Shown piece after piece: positions 24,410 through 32,553 of a stretch of 32,627 nt of DNA. The DNA comes from Deltaproteobacteria bacterium (GTDB lineage Bacteria > Desulfobacterota > Binatia > Binatales > Binataceae), in contig JAJZAI010000040.1 of assembly GCA_021799495.1 (NCBI GenBank), positions 1 through 32,627 on the forward strand, written 5' to 3'. The position numbers and the translations under genes were made by a program. A model generated the notes under the pieces. It ran no database searches, was not told where the DNA came from, and saw only the letters and a program-made list of their open reading frames with translations. Position 1 is the first letter of the stretch. Each line of letters begins with the position of its first letter.

Positions 24410-25246
24410 TCAATTCAGCAGGAAAGCGCGGAGTGCGGCGAGCGATTCCGGCTCGGTCAGGGTCGGCGCGTGTCCCACGCCCGGAATCTCCGCGATCCGC
24501 GTGCCGCGCAGCACACGGCCCATCCGCGCCGCGGTCTCGGCGGACAGGATGTCGCTTTCCGCGCCGCGCACAACCAGCACCGGCGCCGCTATTCGCGCGA
24601 ACGGCATCCACAGGTCCATCGAACGCGCTTCGCTGCCGGAGCGCGGAATATTGCGGACCGCGGGATCGATCTTCCAGACCAGCTTGCCCTGTCCGTTCGG
24701 CTTGACCGCCCATCGCACGAACTCGATCAATTCAGGCTGGGGCGTTTTGGCGAGAAACGGATAGTTCTTGCGATAATAAGCGGCGACCTCGTCGAGGTTG
24801 TCGAATTCATTTTGCGCCGCCGTGAAATAGTCAGTGATGCGTCTCAGTCCGGCCGGATCGATCTCCGGACCGATATCATTCAATACCAGTTTCTCGACCC
24901 GCTCCGGATAGCCGCCCGCGAAGATCATCGAGATGATACCGCCCATCGAGGTCCCTACCAGCGTCGCTCGCGGCACGCCGAGCGTGTTCAGCAGCACGTC
25001 CAGATCCTTGACGTAAAACGGCGGCGCATACTCGCTCGGCGGTCCCCACGCGCTGTCGCCGCGTCCGCGCACGTCCACGGAAATCACGTGGAAACGGCCC
25101 GCCAGATGCGGCGCGAGCGCGTCAAAATTGTGCGCGTTGCCGCTCAAGCCGTGGATGCACACCAGCGTTGGCGCGCCGGCGTTGCCGAAATCGAGATAAT
25201 GCAGCCTAAGGCCGTTGGCTTCGTAAAAAACGCTTCGTCCTGACAA
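24410..25246 (-). CDS. Alpha/beta-fold hydrolase (Ser nucleophile)
   Basis: This 278-residue hydrolase has the oxyanion motif CIHGLSGN (30-37), the elbow LVGTSMGG with Ser100, and a C-terminal EIPGVGHAPTLTEP with His near 259. A likely acid is the Asp in RGAESDIL near 230. This is the pattern of esterases, lactonases and C-C bond hydrolases; no lid motif points to a substrate. It begins 30 bases after the end of the Crp/Fnr-type regulator gene on the same strand, so the two are probably one transcript. Given the PHA genes on the other side of the regulator, a role in hydroxyalkanoate oligomer hydrolysis is possible, but that is inference from position only. Confidence 0.87.
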   Translation of the reverse strand: MSGRSVFYEANGLRLHYLDFGNAGAPTLVCIHGLSGNAHNFDALAPHLAGRFHVISVDVRGRGDSAWGPPSEYAPPFYVKDLDVLLNTLGVPRATLVGTSMGGIISMIFAGGYPERVEKLVLNDIGPEIDPAGLRRITDYFTAAQNEFDNLDEVAAYYRKNYPFLAKTPQPELIEFVRWAVKPNGQGKLVWKIDPAVRNIPRSGSEARSMDLWMPFARIAAPVLVVRGAESDILSAETAARMGRVLRGTRIAEIPGVGHAPTLTEPESLAALRAFLLN

Positions 25247-25276: not shown

Positions 25277-26029
25277 TCAGGTCCGGCGGTTCTGGCCGGA
25301 GCCGTTGTGCGCGGGCCGCGCCGCTTCGTTCGCGGGCGTTTCGATCAACGCGCGCAATTGTTGCGGTACGATGATCAGGCGCCGCCCGTCGCGGATGATA
25401 ATTCCTTCGTCCTCGAATTCATTGAGCTGTTCGGTGGTGCGCTGACGCGATGCGCCGACCAGTTCGGCCAGGTCCGCGTGCGTCAATTTAAGCGTGAGCA
25501 AGGTTCCGCGCGCGTCTTCGACGCCGAATTTCGCGGTTAATTCCAGCAGCGCTCCCGCCAGGCGCTCGCGCACGCTGAGCCCGACGAAATTGGTGTAGCG
25601 CTGAAGCATCATCCACCATCGACCGACCGTGATTTCGAGCGTGCGGCTGAAACGCTCGAGCGGCACGCCCAGCACCAGACCGACGAAAGTCTCGGGCCGC
25701 ACCACGCCGATCGTGCAGTCGCTGAACGCGTCGCATCGAAAAGGCCGCGTCACGTGCGGCAACAGCGAGGATACGCCGAACACTTCGCCCGGACCGACCA
25801 GCCCCACCAGCACGCGTTCGTCGCGATGGAGAAACGAAAGTTTCGCCACGCCCGAGAGCAGCACGAAGACGCGATTGGCGCTTTCGCCTTCAAAAAATAT
25901 CGTATCATGGCGTTTGATTTTTTGCGGAACAAGGCTTTGCGCAAGCCCTTGCAACTGATCCGGGCTTAACCAGGCCAAATTGCGCAGCCGGCCCAATGTC
26001 TTCCCGTCGATTCCTGGTTTTGGCGACAC
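25277..26029 (-). CDS. Crp/Fnr-family transcriptional regulator
   Basis: The 250-residue protein has an N-terminal cyclic-nucleotide-binding-type beta-roll (about 35-140, with FFEGESANRVFVLLSGVAKL and GLVGPGEVFGVSSLLP). A long dimer helix and a C-terminal winged helix-turn-helix follow (LTHADLAELVGASRQRTTEQ near 195-214). The phosphate-binding Arg-Ser pair of true cAMP receptors is absent and there are no FNR-type N-terminal Cys, so the effector is unknown. In the recognition helix the residues matching the Crp Arg-Glu...Arg contacts read Arg-Gln...Glu, which fits a different operator. GTG 26029 is supported by AGGAAG five bases upstream. Its promoter region contains two copies of a TTGTCGC-type dyad, suggesting autoregulation and control of the divergent PHA genes. 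Confidence 0.9.
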   Translation of the reverse strand: MSPKPGIDGKTLGRLRNLAWLSPDQLQGLAQSLVPQKIKRHDTIFFEGESANRVFVLLSGVAKLSFLHRDERVLVGLVGPGEVFGVSSLLPHVTRPFRCDAFSDCTIGVVRPETFVGLVLGVPLERFSRTLEITVGRWWMMLQRYTNFVGLSVRERLAGALLELTAKFGVEDARGTLLTLKLTHADLAELVGASRQRTTEQLNEFEDEGIIIRDGRRLIIVPQQLRALIETPANEAARPAHNGSGQNRRT

Positions 26030-26056
26030 AGATGCTTCCTAGCACAGCCGCACGGT

Positions 26057-26074
26057 TTGTCGCCAAGGCGACAA
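26057..26074. promoter_or_regulatory. Operator candidate O1 (Crp/Fnr-type dyad)
   Basis: TTGTCGCC-AA-GGCGACAA is a perfect 8-bp inverted repeat centred 36 bases upstream of the regulator's GTG. Read as TGTCGC-N4-GCGACA it matches O2 and O3. The half-site and spacing have the geometry of Crp/Fnr operators (Fnr: TTGAT-N4-ATCAA) but with TTGTCGC half-sites. Confidence 0.65.
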
Positions 26075-26108
26075 TTCCGCTGGTCTCGCCCCGACGATCG
26101 GCGGATTT

Positions 26109-26124
26109 GGTCGCCCCCGCGACA
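26109..26124. promoter_or_regulatory. Operator candidate O2 (Crp/Fnr-type dyad)
   Basis: GGTCGC-CCCC-GCGACA has the same half-site and N4 spacer as O1, with one changed base in the left arm. Its centre is 51 bp from that of O1, close to five helical turns, so two dimers would lie on the same DNA face. It is 62 bases upstream of the PhaE/PhaR-like start. Confidence 0.55.
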
Positions 26125-26185
26125 GAGTTAAGGTTAACTAATCGTTGATACAGCCGAGACATCAATTAAACTTGCCGTCAGTAAG

Positions 26186-26794
26186 ATGAACGAGAAAGCT
26201 GCGAATAAGTCCTCCGTCAGCGGCGAGGTCAAGGCGATGGGCGCGAAGAACAATCCAATGCTCGACGAAATGGCAAAACTGTTTGGGGTTCTCTCGGTCG
26301 AATTGCCGACCGCCGCGGCGAAGAGCCTGCTCGGCAACGGCGACCGCGAGGCGCTGCGTCAAACCGGATGGAAAGCCTACGACGCATGGATAAGCCTGGC
26401 TAACGAAACCGCGAACGGCCTGTACGGCAACCGCGCCTTCGGCGAAGCGGTTGGCCGGGGTATCGGCGCGGCGCTGCGCGTGCAGCGGGTGGTCGATGCG
26501 GCCGCCTCGGCGGTTTTCGGCAACCTCTGGCCCGCGCTCGGCCTGCCGACCGAGAGCGCGGTCACGGCGCTTCGCGATGAAGTGAAAGCGCTGCGCAGCG
26601 AAGTCCGCGCGCTAGGCGAAGAACTCCAGAGCGGTACGGCGGAAGACGAACTGGACGCCGGCGACGACTATGCCGCGTCGCGCAGCGCGGAGGCCCAGAA
26701 CGCCGCCGCCGCGATGATCTGGAACGGATATCGTCCGGAACAGCCGCGCGTCCGCGGCGGCCGCAAGGAGGGCAAGAAGAGTGTCGCTCTTTAA
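26186..26794 (+). CDS. PhaE/PhaR-like accessory subunit of PHA synthase
   Basis: The 202-residue protein precedes phaC and overlaps it by 14 bases, the position of the second subunit in class III (PhaE) and class IV (PhaR) synthases. Residues 25-115 are helical and Ala-rich. GLPTESAVTALRDEVKALRS (119-138) starts a coiled coil to about 148 and resembles the PT-start, Leu-heptad box near the C-terminus of PhaE/PhaR. A disordered tail ends in basic residues (RVRGGRKEGKKSVAL). At 202 residues it is much shorter than PhaE (about 350) and near PhaR (about 200). A phasin-like granule protein is the alternative. The subunit is expected to activate PhaC at the granule surface. Confidence 0.65.
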   Translation: MNEKAANKSSVSGEVKAMGAKNNPMLDEMAKLFGVLSVELPTAAAKSLLGNGDREALRQTGWKAYDAWISLANETANGLYGNRAFGEAVGRGIGAALRVQRVVDAAASAVFGNLWPALGLPTESAVTALRDEVKALRSEVRALGEELQSGTAEDELDAGDDYAASRSAEAQNAAAAMIWNGYRPEQPRVRGGRKEGKKSVAL

Positions 26795-27857
26795 CGATAT
26801 CGCCGGTTATTGGCTCGACGGCGCGGTCCGTACGCTGGATTCGATCGGCCGGGGCTTCGGCTCGCAGGTGTCGGCCGATCCGCCGCCGGTCACGCCCTAC
26901 AAGGTCATCTACGAAGGCGGCAAGGTCAGCCTGCGGCATTACCGTGCGCCCAACCGCATTCACGCGACGCCGATCGTGCTGGTCTATGCGCTGATCAAGC
27001 GTCCGTTCGTGCTCGATTTGCAGCCCGGCAAGAGCGTGGTCGAACTTCTGCTCAAGCGCGGCTTCGACGTCTACCTGATCGACTGGCAGCCGCCGACTCG
27101 CGCCGACGCGTGGCGCGGTTTCGACGCCTACGTCAATCAGGATTTGGACAACGCCGTCCGCGCCGTGCAGATCGCCGAAGATATCGATCAGGTCAACGTC
27201 ATTGGCTACTGCTTCGGCGCGCTGCTGAGCCTGCTCTACACGGCGCTCCATCCGGAGAAAGTCAAAAATCTGGTCACCTTGACCACTCCGTACGACATGG
27301 GTTCGCGCGATTTGGCGATCTACAATTTGATGGATCGGATCGACGATCGCGGCTTCGAGTTGATTGTCAAAATCTACGGGAACTGTCCGGCGTGGATGGT
27401 GAATTCGATGTTCACCGCGATGGCTCCGATGCATCACGCGCTCGACAAGTACGTCGGATTGTATCGCAACGCCGAGCGCGACGGTTACGCGGAGATGTTC
27501 GAGCTGTTCGAGCGCTGGATGCAAAGCGACGTGCCGCTGGCGGGCCGGATTTTTTGCGAATTGACATCGGAAATCTTCAAGGCGAACAAGCTCGCGAAAG
27601 GCGAGTTTGAAGTTGGCGGCCGGCGCGTCGATTTGAGCCAAATCACCATGCCGGTGCTGAACGTGGTGGCCGAGCATGACGATGTCGTGCATCCGAACTC
27701 CAGCCTCTCGCTGATCGACAAAATTGGCGGCACGGACAAGCGGAACCTCACTTTTCCGACCGGCCATATTGGCGCGGTGGTCAGCAACGGCGCGCTGAAG
27801 AAAATGTGGCCGGAAATCGCGGGATGGCTCGCCGACCGCGATAATCCGCTGATGTGA
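26781..27857 (+). CDS. phaC: Poly(3-hydroxyalkanoate) synthase, class III/IV PhaC
   Basis: PhaC polymerises (R)-3-hydroxyacyl-CoA into storage polyester granules. At 358 residues it has the length of class III/IV PhaC (about 355), not class I/II (about 560-590). The catalytic triad is visible: Cys144 in the lipase-like box GYCFGA, Asp300/301 in AEHDDVV, and His329 in TGHIGAV. Spacing matches the class III prototype. DWQPPTRADAWRGFDAYVNQ (101-120) is the family's conserved core, and HYRAPNRIHATPIVLVYALI precedes it. GTG 26781 follows AAGGAGG by nine bases. The overlap with the upstream gene implies coupled, near-equal synthesis of the two subunits. No phaA (thiolase) or phaB (reductase) gene is in the window. 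Confidence 0.95.
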   Translation: MSLFNDIAGYWLDGAVRTLDSIGRGFGSQVSADPPPVTPYKVIYEGGKVSLRHYRAPNRIHATPIVLVYALIKRPFVLDLQPGKSVVELLLKRGFDVYLIDWQPPTRADAWRGFDAYVNQDLDNAVRAVQIAEDIDQVNVIGYCFGALLSLLYTALHPEKVKNLVTLTTPYDMGSRDLAIYNLMDRIDDRGFELIVKIYGNCPAWMVNSMFTAMAPMHHALDKYVGLYRNAERDGYAEMFELFERWMQSDVPLAGRIFCELTSEIFKANKLAKGEFEVGGRRVDLSQITMPVLNVVAEHDDVVHPNSSLSLIDKIGGTDKRNLTFPTGHIGAVVSNGALKKMWPEIAGWLADRDNPLM

Positions 27858-27885
27858 GGCGAATTCGCGCGAAATTCGACCCGCT

Positions 27886-27903
27886 TTGTCGCACAAGTGA
27901 CAA
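27886..27903. promoter_or_regulatory. Operator candidate O3 upstream of the phasin-like gene
   Basis: TTGTCGC-ACAA-GTGACAA differs from the ideal dyad at one base. Its flanks also match O1: both read TTTGTCGC ... GACAATTC. It starts 28 bases after the phaC stop, so the phasin-like gene probably has its own regulated promoter. Confidence 0.6.
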
Positions 27904-28012
27904 TTCGGCAGAAGCTGCCGGTGGTTGAGTGGTTAATTTGAAGAAATCCGCAAAAAGCGTCAAAGACGCGCAAAAAAAGACTTCCCACAAAGGGACTGGA
28001 GGATTGGACGCA

Positions 28013-28291
28013 GTGGAAAAGGAAAATCGCGAAGGCATGTTTGAAGCGTTCGGCAAGCTCGGTGAATCGTTCTTATCGCTCGATGGCGCCAAGAAAGCGG
28101 CCGCATGGTACATCGAGACCAGCGAGCGGTTCGCAACCCAGGCGCTCGAGTTGCAGGAGAAGGCGACCGGATGGGCCAAGGAAACCCCGCTCGCTCCGCT
28201 GTTCGAGGCGCAGCACAATTTCGCCCGCAAGCTGATCGAACGCTCGGCCACCGCCGCCCGCAATCTCTGGCAGGTTCCGGCGAACAACTAA
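28013..28291 (+). CDS. Phasin-like small granule-associated protein
   Basis: The product is 92 residues from GTG 28013, which is favoured by GGAGGA (27998-28003) nine bases upstream. The frame is open back to a GTG at 27929, which would add a Lys-rich leader of 28 residues but has no ribosome site. The protein is amphipathic helix throughout: MFEAFGKLGESFLSLDGAKK, then WYIETSERFATQALELQEKA and a third helix, FEAQHNFARKLIERSATAAR. Size, Ala content and position after phaC fit a phasin, which coats PHA granules. There is no firm motif, so the call rests on context and helix pattern. A putative operator (27886-27903) lies upstream and a terminator follows at 28319. Confidence 0.65.
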   Translation: MEKENREGMFEAFGKLGESFLSLDGAKKAAAWYIETSERFATQALELQEKATGWAKETPLAPLFEAQHNFARKLIERSATAARNLWQVPANN

Positions 28292-28318
28292 ATCCCTCCG
28301 CTTCCGGTTGTGACGATT

Positions 28319-28351
28319 GGCGCGGGCCGGTTTTTCGGCTCGCGCCTTTTT
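28319..28351 (+). terminator. Intrinsic terminator after the phasin-like gene
   Basis: Arm GGCGCGGGCCG (28319-28329), loop GTTTTT and arm CGGCTCGCGCC (28336-28346) form an 11-bp stem with one G-T pair, followed by TTTTT. It lies 28 bases after the stop and closes the PHA gene group. Confidence 0.9.
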
Positions 28352-30204: not shown

Positions 30205-31056
30205 TCATCGGCGCCGAAATGACCCGGGATTTGCGCGAATCCATGCTCTAATCATCTGGCGCGCGCCAATCCGTCAATTTGTAGCATTCTGAAATATCAT
30301 GAAGGTGCGCGGCCTGTTCCACCGCTGCAACATCAGTTGGATGAGCTGAATAGAGTAATCGAAAAAGGACGGTATGTGGATGCGATAGCTGGGCAAAGCT
30401 GTCTGGCACGGCCGATGCTTGTTTCCCCTTCGCGCTGCCGTCGCCAAACGTACGACGGTGCAAGGGGAGGGCGAACCGATGGAAATATCCAAAGGTTCGA
30501 GCATCAACGAACATGAGTTGTCGATTGTGCGCGAGGGCTCAGGCGTCGCATCCGGCTTGATTCGCCGGGTATTCGCTTCGTGGCGGCGAACGCCCGCTGC
30601 GATTGCTTATCGGCGAATTGACCGGCCGCGAAGATCAGTCGATCGCAGCTTCCAGGAAAATAGCCCAACTTACGAGTAGGCGCCGGCTGATTCTTTGTTA
30701 TGAATGGCGCCCGGGTGGCGGCTTCCAAAGCATTGAGTCGTGCGCGCATGGCGCGCGCTTCTTTCGTTATTAGCTGAACGGAATTTTGCTCGATTCCGCG
30801 CAATTTTCGCGGCGGCGCGATGCCGCCGACAAATTTGCGGCGGCCATAATTTGCCATTTAATTTAATTTTTCGGCGCGCCGTGTGAATCGAACGCCAACT
30901 TCCGATGGCCGGCCTTCATCTTCTTGCCGGCTATTGCGTGAAAATTCCTGCCGGATACGGTCGGCGAGCCATGCGTTAGCCCGATGGCATCGGTCTTGAA
31001 AACGTTTCTTGTCCGTGCGCTTGCGACCGAGTCGCTGGAACGATGCGAAGCGAAGC
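30205..31056. other. Gene-poor stretch with short, weak reading frames
   Basis: No recognisable protein is encoded in these about 850 bases. A ribosome-site-led small frame (30479-30679) is listed separately. A minus-strand frame at 30504-30857 (117 codons, starting MANYGRRKFVGGIAPPRKLR) overlaps it and lacks a ribosome site. The plus-strand stretch near 30320-30420 contains a protein-like run (HQLDELNRVIEKGRYVDAIA) without a start codon, perhaps a gene remnant. Base composition is less GC-rich than in flanking genes, with an AT-rich patch at 30850-30870. Confidence 0.4.
30479..30679 (+). CDS. Possible small protein of 66 residues
   Basis: The only support is a near-perfect ribosome site, AAGGGGAGG (30462-30470), eight bases before ATG 30479, and an open frame to the TAG ending at 30679. 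The product starts MEISKGSSINEHELSIV and turns strongly basic (RRVFASWRRTPAAIAYRRID). No family is recognised and codon use is less GC-biased at third positions than in neighbours. It may be a real small gene or a chance frame in a decayed region. Confidence 0.3.
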   Translation: MEISKGSSINEHELSIVREGSGVASGLIRRVFASWRRTPAAIAYRRIDRPRRSVDRSFQENSPTYE

Positions 31057-32553
31057 GTGAAACCGCGCGGCGGCGCGGTCGCGTCGCTGATCGCGATTGC
31101 ATGTTTCGCTTTGAGCGGCATCGCCGGCGCGCAAGGCGCGAAAACGCCGCGGCTGGGGGTTTTCGATTCGATCGCGTCCAATCTTCACGCCTTTGCCGCG
31201 AATCCCGATTCCAAAAATCGCGGTTTGGATGGCGCGGTCGGCAATCTGCTCGCGCTGTCGCGCCAATGGAGCACAATCCGGCCGCTCCTGGAAAATCTTG
31301 AGGCGGCGCGAAGCCGCGGCGCAAGCGCCTCGATTCTTTCATTCAACGATCTGTTTACGGGCGCCTTCGGCCCGCTGATATTTGGCCCGCGGCAGATCTC
31401 CGGCATCACGCTCGCGGCAACCCGCTTCACCGGCTTTACTCAAAACGAAACGGCGAACGCGTGGTGCGGCGCGAACGCGGTGGTGGCGTTCAACGACACT
31501 GGCAGCGAGATTCGCACGATGCTCGGCGGTTCAGGCACGAGCGCTATCGGCTATTCACGATCGTCGAATCACGGAATCGCGTTCAGCTACCAGCAGGCTC
31601 CCACGCCGCCGTCGAATTCATGGCAGGCGGTGATGGGCGATCCGTCGATCGTTTGCGCCAATTTGAATGACTTTTATTATTCGGCGATCTGGTACGACAG
31701 CCTGAATAACCAGATTGGCGTGAGCGTCGCGCAATCGAGCGACGGCGGCGGTTCATTCACGGCGCCGGCGCCAGCGATCCTCAAGAGTTCGCTGACCGAT
31801 ATCGTTGGCCAGGACAAACTCGCCGTCGATCGCGGCAATTCGGAAAATCTGTATCTGGTTTTCTCTGATATCGATTATTCCGGTTCGGTGTGCGGCACGG
31901 ATCAGTACGGACAACCGATTCCTCGTTATGCGATCGAATTGGTTGCATCCAACGACGGCGGCGGCGCCTGGAGCAGTCAGCCGGTGGTCGTCGATCAGGT
32001 TTGCGCGGATCAAAACAATCCCTATGCGTCCGATGTTTGGCCGCAGGTGGCCGTGGGTCCGGGCGGCGTGGTTTATGTGGCGTGGGAGGCGATGGGCGTC
32101 AATGGATCGGATCCGACCGCGCGCGCGATCAAAATCGCCCGTTCGACCGATTCGGGCGCCACTTTTGGCCAGCCTGTCACGGTCGCGAGCGTGGTGGCGA
32201 TCGGCGATGGCGCTGAAATCCAAGGCTTCATCGCATCCAATGAGGCGCCCTCGCTGGCGATTGGACAAGGCCAGAAGAACAACGGCGTCGTTTATCTGGC
32301 GTGGGCGAACGCGGCTTACAGCGCCAAGGATGCGCTCACGACAACCGGGCTTTACGGGATGGCGGACGTGATGTTCGCGCAGTCGTCGAATGGCGGCGCT
32401 GATTGGTCGTCGCCGATGCGCGTCAACAACAATCCGGAGGGCGGCCGGTTTCCGTATACCGATCATTTCGAGCCGGCGATAAACACCGACAAAACCGGGA
32501 AAATCGGAATCTGTTTTTACGATCGCCGCCGGGTGGTGTCTGTCAATTGGTAG
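31057..32553 (+). CDS. Secreted Asp-box (BNR/sialidase-like) beta-propeller protein, probably truncated at the C-terminus
   Basis: From GTG 31057 the product is 498 residues and starts with a good signal peptide (MKPRGG, then AVASLIAIACFALSGIAGAQG). A TTG at 31009 is the longer alternative. Four Asp-box motifs (S-x-D-x-G-x-x-F/W) mark propeller blades: SSDGGGSF near 228, SNDGGGAW near 298, STDSGATF near 364 and SSNGGADW near 443. Such repeats occur in sialidases and in many exported non-enzymatic propellers. The catalytic Arg triad and Tyr of sialidases are not evident, so an enzyme function is not claimed. The frame stops soon after KIGICFYDRRR, where relatives would normally continue, and composition changes there. 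It likely lost its 3' end. Confidence 0.75.
   Translation: MKPRGGAVASLIAIACFALSGIAGAQGAKTPRLGVFDSIASNLHAFAANPDSKNRGLDGAVGNLLALSRQWSTIRPLLENLEAARSRGASASILSFNDLFTGAFGPLIFGPRQISGITLAATRFTGFTQNETANAWCGANAVVAFNDTGSEIRTMLGGSGTSAIGYSRSSNHGIAFSYQQAPTPPSNSWQAVMGDPSIVCANLNDFYYSAIWYDSLNNQIGVSVAQSSDGGGSFTAPAPAILKSSLTDIVGQDKLAVDRGNSENLYLVFSDIDYSGSVCGTDQYGQPIPRYAIELVASNDGGGAWSSQPVVVDQVCADQNNPYASDVWPQVAVGPGGVVYVAWEAMGVNGSDPTARAIKIARSTDSGATFGQPVTVASVVAIGDGAEIQGFIASNEAPSLAIGQGQKNNGVVYLAWANAAYSAKDALTTTGLYGMADVMFAQSSNGGADWSSPMRVNNNPEGGRFPYTDHFEPAINTDKTGKIGICFYDRRRVVSVNW

Follow-up and report, generated by a model that had tools for sequence, protein, structure and literature searches.

A Crp/Fnr-type regulator and CooA-like operators predicted to form a small polyhydroxyalkanoate regulon in Binatia

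One question raised by the polyhydroxyalkanoate (PHA) genes of a Deltaproteobacteria bacterium of the family Binataceae (assembly GCA_021799495.1) is whether the Crp/Fnr-type gene lying divergently beside them is their own regulator, reading a short inverted repeat found near each promoter. The locus lies in a window of 32,627 nucleotides, the whole stretch of contig JAJZAI010000040.1 that was analysed. The known controls of PHA synthesis are proteins of the PhaR/PhaQ/PhaD type and global oxygen and nitrogen regulators; a dedicated Crp/Fnr regulon covering polymerase, partner subunit and granule protein would, if true, be a compact control unit and a first point of entry to the regulation of carbon storage in Binatia. 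The explanation offered here, which we consider very likely as a whole, is that the locus is a small dedicated PHA regulon run by the Crp/Fnr regulator through these dyads. It is carried by the dyads themselves, the families of the genes, conservation, co-occurrence and the recognition helix, all of them read from sequence.

The regulator gene, on the minus strand, diverges from a phaE-phaC operon on the plus strand, and a phasin-like gene follows downstream (Table 1). In domain-profile searches the regulator matches PF00027 (53.6 bits) and PF13545 (53.9 bits), both over cut-off; it is the sole protein of the 3.43-Mb genome over the PF13545 cut-off. The other assignments come from weaker scores: TIGR01836 is the best match of PhaC, at 313.5 bits and below the curated cut-off of 365.3; the PhaE-like protein reaches 20.5 bits with TIGR01834, far under the cut-off of 154.95; and the phasin-like protein reaches 21.4 bits with PF09361, under the cut-off of 24.9. 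The criterion applied for a class III PHA synthase was a PhaC of ~355 aa adjoining a PhaE subunit. With only ~7 nt between its annotated start and the inferred start of transcription, the PhaE-like frame may truly begin further in.

An earlier note on this DNA, made from the sequence alone, had described three dyads of the form TGTCGC-N4-GCGACA, two between the divergent regulator and synthase genes and the third before the phasin-like gene; both the repeats and their placement are confirmed from the sequence. By count alone the dyad is unremarkable, with no genome-wide enrichment. The window holds three sites at up to two mismatches vs 3.84 expected in shuffles; the genome holds 17 sites at up to one mismatch of the 16-mer vs 11 for the reversed pattern, and 278 sites at three mismatches of the 18-mer vs 283 reversed. 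Whether the dyad is equally common across the genome, a point on which the note had staked its reading, depends on the quality of the copy: loose copies are, but good ones are not. O1 is the only perfect TTGTCGC-N4-GCGACAA 18-mer in the genome, and three of the 17 one-mismatch genome sites cluster within 1.85 kb, at the PHA locus. The note had also pointed to flanks shared by O1 and O3. In the window TTTGTCGC and GACAATTC are indeed common to both, but this detail has little weight, because two sister genomes, G003 and G006, do not share the outer ATTC, and it was dropped as evidence.

What decides against chance is the conserved position and sequence of the predicted sites in relatives. The consensus tested was TTGTCRC-N4-GYGACAA, with mismatch limits stated for each count. 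In 56 upstream regions from regulator-bearing genomes there are 65 sites at up to two mismatches, vs a mean of 0.23 in shuffles (maximum 1 of 60) and none for the reversed pattern; at up to three mismatches, 52 of the 56 regions have a site. This survey omits G001, whose regulator is truncated by the end of a contig, and G033, which has only a paralogue; the loci L103, L104, L107, L113 and those of G062-G075 were read separately and are likewise left out. Ten comparison regions, from phaC loci without an orthologue or around a second phaC copy, yielded one site in all (before phaE of G020). In Binataceae the order of divergent regulator and phaE-phaC-phasin is widely kept, and every one of the 16 regulator-phaE gaps contains a pair of dyads, with a spacing of 51 bp in 13 gaps and 50 bp in three (a count made with a stricter consensus, from which sites in G004 depart by up to four mismatches). 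The pair is found far from the regulator in G012 and G026, where an additional dyad adjoins the regulator. Fresh loci agree: the predicted sites are present in G063, G069 and G072, and 10 of 15 further phaC regions have the 51-bp pair; of the five without it, three are second copies, one is from G066, which has no regulator, and one is truncated by the end of its contig. The dyad is conserved upstream of orthologous loci, as the note's reading would require, in the 56-region survey, the Binataceae gaps, these fresh loci and a second family.

In that second family, f5, the regulators are 45-50% identical and the arrangement differs: the regulator adjoins the phasin gene, and phaE and phaC lie kilobases off or on other contigs. 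A single dyad precedes the regulator, a single dyad precedes the phasin gene, and a 51-bp pair stands before phaE or phaC. The predicted sites stay with the PHA genes despite the rearrangement, and a very small PHA regulon, as predicted from them, is present in two Binatia families. One f5 genome also carries, adjoining the phasin gene, an XRE-type helix-turn-helix-like frame (L106:9254-9763, minus strand, read by eye), possibly a second PHA regulator.

Site and regulator also go together across the class, for which 148 genomes were compared; the Binatia records found here are all metagenome-assembled. The exact consensus occurs 25 times and the reversed pattern twice; for 21 of the 25 exact sites, a regulator orthologue is no more than ~2.1 kb away. 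Orthologues were called by a whole-length profile at at least 286 bits, the next match scoring 233. The regulator orthologue is present in 33 genomes and PhaC in 36: both occur in 31, the regulator only in two, PhaC only in five and neither in 110 (Fisher p 2e-24, uncorrected for kinship). In the two regulator-only genomes, G001 and G005, both loci are at contig ends; the PhaC-only genomes are G009, G020, G023, G033 and G066. Through these sites the regulator very probably controls just the PHA genes beside it.

The protein itself offers a match to the dyad. All 34 loci read, which come from 32 of the 33 genomes with an orthologue, have the recognition helix GASRQ[RK]xTE, and the motif is also present in the 33rd, G028. 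One locus scan used peptide patterns containing GASRQ, so that its loci are no evidence for the motif; the orthologues called by the whole-length profile are. Nine further Crp-type helices caught in relatives have Pro (eight) or Ala (one) at the position of the orthologues' Gln; several paralogues were not caught. Neighbouring pairs of related Crp/Fnr genes were also seen in Binataceae genomes (loci L082, L083, L084 and L086), those caught having GASRP helices. In CRP numbering the regulator keeps R180 and replaces E181 by Gln; positions 180 and 181 go with half-site choice across the superfamily (PMC1274295, in excerpt). The operator of CooA, the carbon monoxide (CO)-sensing activator of Rhodospirillum rubrum, is TGTC-N8-GACA (PMC7306483; given as TGTCGGCNNGCCGACA in PMC545781; both in excerpt), and its helix is GSSRQTTSTALN vs GASRQRTTEQLN in the regulator, with SRQxT common to both. 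The predicted operator and the recognition helix of the regulator are CooA-like, and we hold with high confidence that the dyads are this regulator's operators. The note knew of no described Crp/Fnr operator with this half-site tied to PHA genes; the half-site is not new for Crp/Fnr proteins, because CooA reads it with the same SRQxT helix, but the tie to PHA genes is, as far as the papers listed go. A search of the literature for the CooA helix residues found nothing usable.

How the sites might work is suggested by the promoters. All 16 Binataceae gaps have a TTG at the same distance downstream of O2 and a -10-like element 16-17 bp on; O2 lies at -61.5 to -63.5 relative to the inferred phaE start, with O1 51 bp further upstream. 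A -41.5/-92.5 layout for the pair was rejected, as the kept -35 and -10 elements place O2 near -62. The phasin promoter has TGRTTA in 10 of 10 aligned loci and no clear -35 element; read by eye, this places O3 near -51. Of the f5 pairs, the nearer dyad is at about -52 before phaE in seven of eight loci (-63.5 in G038), likewise before phaC in two of two; the phasin dyad is at -61.5 or -48.5, depending on the -35 element chosen; and the single dyad of the regulator stands directly after a -35-like element of the type TTGC[TA] and extends into A-rich sequence.

Dyads upstream of the core promoter, at positions that differ by about one helical turn, fit class I-type activation as it is known for CRP, and the site positions make activation of the PHA genes likely. 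From these layouts we infer a scheme of binding, activation and autorepression, to which a class of ligand is added below. A regulator dimer would bind TTGTCRC-N4-GYGACAA; at O2, with O1 on the same helix face, it would recruit RNA polymerase to the phaE-phaC promoter, and at O3 it would activate the phasin promoter. The two pre-synthase sites would serve phaE-phaC jointly, rather than one the regulator and the other phaC. At O1 the protein would also cover the region before its own gene and probably limit its own synthesis: the short distance from O1 to the regulator start and the f5 dyad at a -35-like element suit autorepression, to which we give an even chance.

The signal is harder to read. 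The predicted structure of the regulator has a predicted local distance difference test score (pLDDT) of 81, and fold comparison gave Z scores up to 18.8. GlxR and mycobacterial CRP provide the best overall sequence match (4.2e-16) and the best fold (Z 18.8, root-mean-square deviation 4.0, 215 residues aligned); the NtcA fold, at Z 17.9, is tied with the best. For the sensor domain the best PDB match is NtcA (residues 34-91). The NtcA family is also the best NCBIfam match of the regulator, at 47.7 bits far under the cut-off of 244.95, and a search of its own genome with the NtcA-family profile found only this regulator, under cut-off. In CRP and GlxR, cyclic AMP (cAMP) is contacted by the cassette Glu and an Arg-Ser pair. 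Among the regulator orthologues, Gly85 of the cassette is kept in 18 of 18, Arg95 in 17 of 18 and Arg137 of the C-helix in 18 of 18; Val, Ile, Leu or Ala stands where CRP and GlxR have Glu after the cassette Gly, and the Ser that follows the cassette Arg is replaced as well. The matching residues of NtcA bind 2-oxoglutarate by its acid group, and two of them have counterparts in CRP that hold the cAMP phosphate (PMC12937710, in excerpt). The NtcA residues compared were R88-G76, R129 and, in trans, E134, where the regulator has Leu; the register is partly inferred, because the PDB matches gave no NtcA alignment beyond the FGV motif.

FNR holds its iron-sulfur cluster with four cysteines; these are absent from the window regulator, whose only cysteines are Cys99 and Cys105. 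Haem binding requires the absence of the region equivalent to CRP 72-82 (PMC12937710, in excerpt); no such deletion was seen in the regulator, where the region is present in ungapped alignment to cAMP receptors. By these marks the sensor domain is not of the CooA, FNR or cAMP type. The phosphate-cassette Gly and Arg and the C-helix Arg are kept and the CRP glutamate is lost, so that the signal would be an acidic metabolite other than a cyclic nucleotide; that it is a small acidic metabolite we propose tentatively, at somewhat less than an even chance, and 2-oxoglutarate is a possible ligand. A bolder proposal joins an NtcA-like acid pocket to a CooA-like DNA reader: the regulator would sense 2-oxoglutarate or a related organic acid and would convert an imbalance of carbon and nitrogen directly into the formation of PHA granules in Binatia, without a nitrogen-control cascade. 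This we think rather doubtful.

Other accounts of the same dyads have to be weighed. If they were chance palindromes in G+C-rich DNA, numbers equal to chance would be expected, as is the case in window and genome at two to three mismatches; conservation and the controls (16 gaps, 56 regions, 148 genomes, fresh loci) contradict this and leave it next to no probability. Another DNA-binding protein might read the dyads, the regulator being a bystander, which would accommodate the G020 site and the three exact sites in genomes without an orthologue; yet the link of site and regulator across the 148 genomes, a CRP-type architecture whose CooA-like helix matches the half-site, and the regulator's standing alone over the PF13545 cut-off make this improbable. 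A CooA-type CO sensor that took over PHA genes would share the outer half-site and the SRQxT helix, as this protein does, but it should lack the region of CRP residues 72-82, which must be missing for haem to bind (PMC12937710, in excerpt) and which is present and ungapped here; with a sensor domain that matches NtcA best, not CooA, the chance of such an origin is very slim. More credit is due to the idea that the same protein, on the same operators, represses the PHA genes until its ligand rises; a bridge between O1 and O2, 51 bp apart, would be one means. The fixed 50-51 bp pair could equally serve such a bridge, and at the f5 regulator the single site falls between a -35-like and a -10-like element, a position from which repression by the protein is plausible. 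However, O2 and O3 do not cover the core promoter but lie ahead of it, at about -51 to -63, and the phasin promoter and the f5 phaC and phaE promoters share the same layout; repression of the PHA genes is unlikely in our estimate, with a real share of the probability.

Several observations weigh against a dedicated regulon that activates through these dyads, the reading preferred here. The promoters are consensus matches, and the best phasin promoters returned by a script scatter from -42 to -80, the kept motif having been read by eye. Some f5 pair sites are weak, with three to four mismatches, and the four regions of the survey without a site at up to three mismatches are the phasin regions of G024, G010, G012 and G025. 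The consensus was derived from part of the loci also counted in that survey, which makes G063, G069, G072 and the 15 further phaC regions the fresher test. The regulator is 'sole' by a PF13545 scan, other Crp helix-turn-helix models not having been searched, and three distant relatives in family f2 carry the same Gln (GASRQQVT) in genomes without this phaC. The exact sites in genomes without an orthologue are in G040, G045 and G106, those of G040 and G045 overlapping open frames. G020 keeps a one-mismatch dyad (L071:6358-6375) before phaE and has only regulator paralogues. The G020 dyad has no second dyad 50-52 bp away, and its history may be one of loss or takeover.

Among known systems CooA is closest in operator and helix; the regulator differs from it by a C for G after TGTCR in the site, by a sensor domain without the haem-type deletion, and by its tie to PHA genes where CooA is tied to CO dehydrogenase. 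GlxR and mycobacterial CRP are the best sequence and fold match, but the cassette Glu and the Ser are replaced in the regulator, and their half-site differs from that of the dyad. NtcA, the cyanobacterial 2-oxoglutarate sensor, shares the FGV.SL motif and, in the register adopted, an Arg aligned with R129 and the cassette Gly and Arg; unlike the regulator it has Glu at 134, and its operator is GTA-N8-TAC (PMC3898017, in excerpt). The Crp/Fnr proteins Anr, Fnr, CydR and FixK2 alter PHA gene expression (PMC9049629, in excerpt) as global oxygen or redox regulators, whereas the regulon predicted here is local. Local control of synthase and phasin genes is what PhaR, PhaQ and PhaD exert, but they belong to other protein families, none of which is among the regulator's matches at E 0.001 or better in family-profile searches. 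No dedicated, locus-bound Crp/Fnr regulator of PHA genes was found in the open-licence literature, among the matches listed; within that scope the tie of a CooA-like half-site to PHA genes is new. The fixed 51-bp pair and the match of helix and operator give testable predictions.

Table 1. Genes, predicted operators and promoter elements of the PHA locus (window coordinates)
Feature	Position	Strand	Remarks
Crp/Fnr regulator, 250 aa, GTG start	25277..26029	-	PF00027 and PF13545 matches; recognition helix GASRQRTTE
Predicted operator O1, TTGTCGCCAAGGCGACAA	26057..26074	.	perfect 18-bp dyad; upstream member of the pre-phaE pair; 27 bp from regulator start
Predicted operator O2, core 26109-26124 GGTCGCCCCCGCGACA	26108..26125	.	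one left-arm change; 51 bp from O1
-35-like TTGATA, phaE promoter	26145..26150	+	kept in relatives
-10-like TAAACT, phaE promoter	26167..26172	+	kept in relatives; inferred transcription start near 26179
PhaE-like subunit	26186..26794	+	weak TIGR01834 match
PhaC, probable class III PHA synthase subunit	26781..27857	+	GYCFG box; best match TIGR01836
Predicted operator O3, TTGTCGCACAAGTGACAA	27886..27903	.	one right-arm change; precedes phasin-like gene
Phasin-like gene	27929..28291	+	PF09361 match; likely true start GTG 28013, after GGAGG
Extended -10-like element, phasin promoter, TGGTTAATTT	27930..27939	+	read by eye; predicted transcription start near 27946

Further targets were sought in seven genomes, which together hold 28 sites at up to one mismatch vs 11 for the reversed pattern. 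Four of the six such sites in the window's genome are outside the PHA locus (C40, C15, C30 and C46). The C40 site, the same in G003, is inside a branched-chain aminotransferase-like frame (by eye), and those of C15 and C30 overlap long open frames; the idea of a wider regulon was dropped. The remaining one-mismatch dyad, L176:1305-1322 (G000 C46), and its counterpart L177:1311-1328 (G006 C72) are apparently intergenic and adjoin the same small gene; the C46 dyad precedes a helix-turn-helix gene (by eye) and is a possible fourth target, not an established one. In G030, whose genome has the regulator, an exact operator (L077:794-811, C49) stands ~105 bp ahead of an E1 gene of a thiamine-dependent dehydrogenase (PF00676); this gene may be a further target, one that would supply acetyl-CoA.

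In the window, an alpha/beta hydrolase gene (24410-25246, minus strand) follows the regulator on its strand at a distance of 30 bp, and 16 of 17 Binataceae loci have such a gene close to the regulator; its product weakly matches an intracellular PHA depolymerase model (71 bits, cut-off 300). Farther along, a long frame on the plus strand (31009-32553) has a sub-threshold match to a BNR repeat-like domain, at 19.7 bits vs a cut-off of 31.4.

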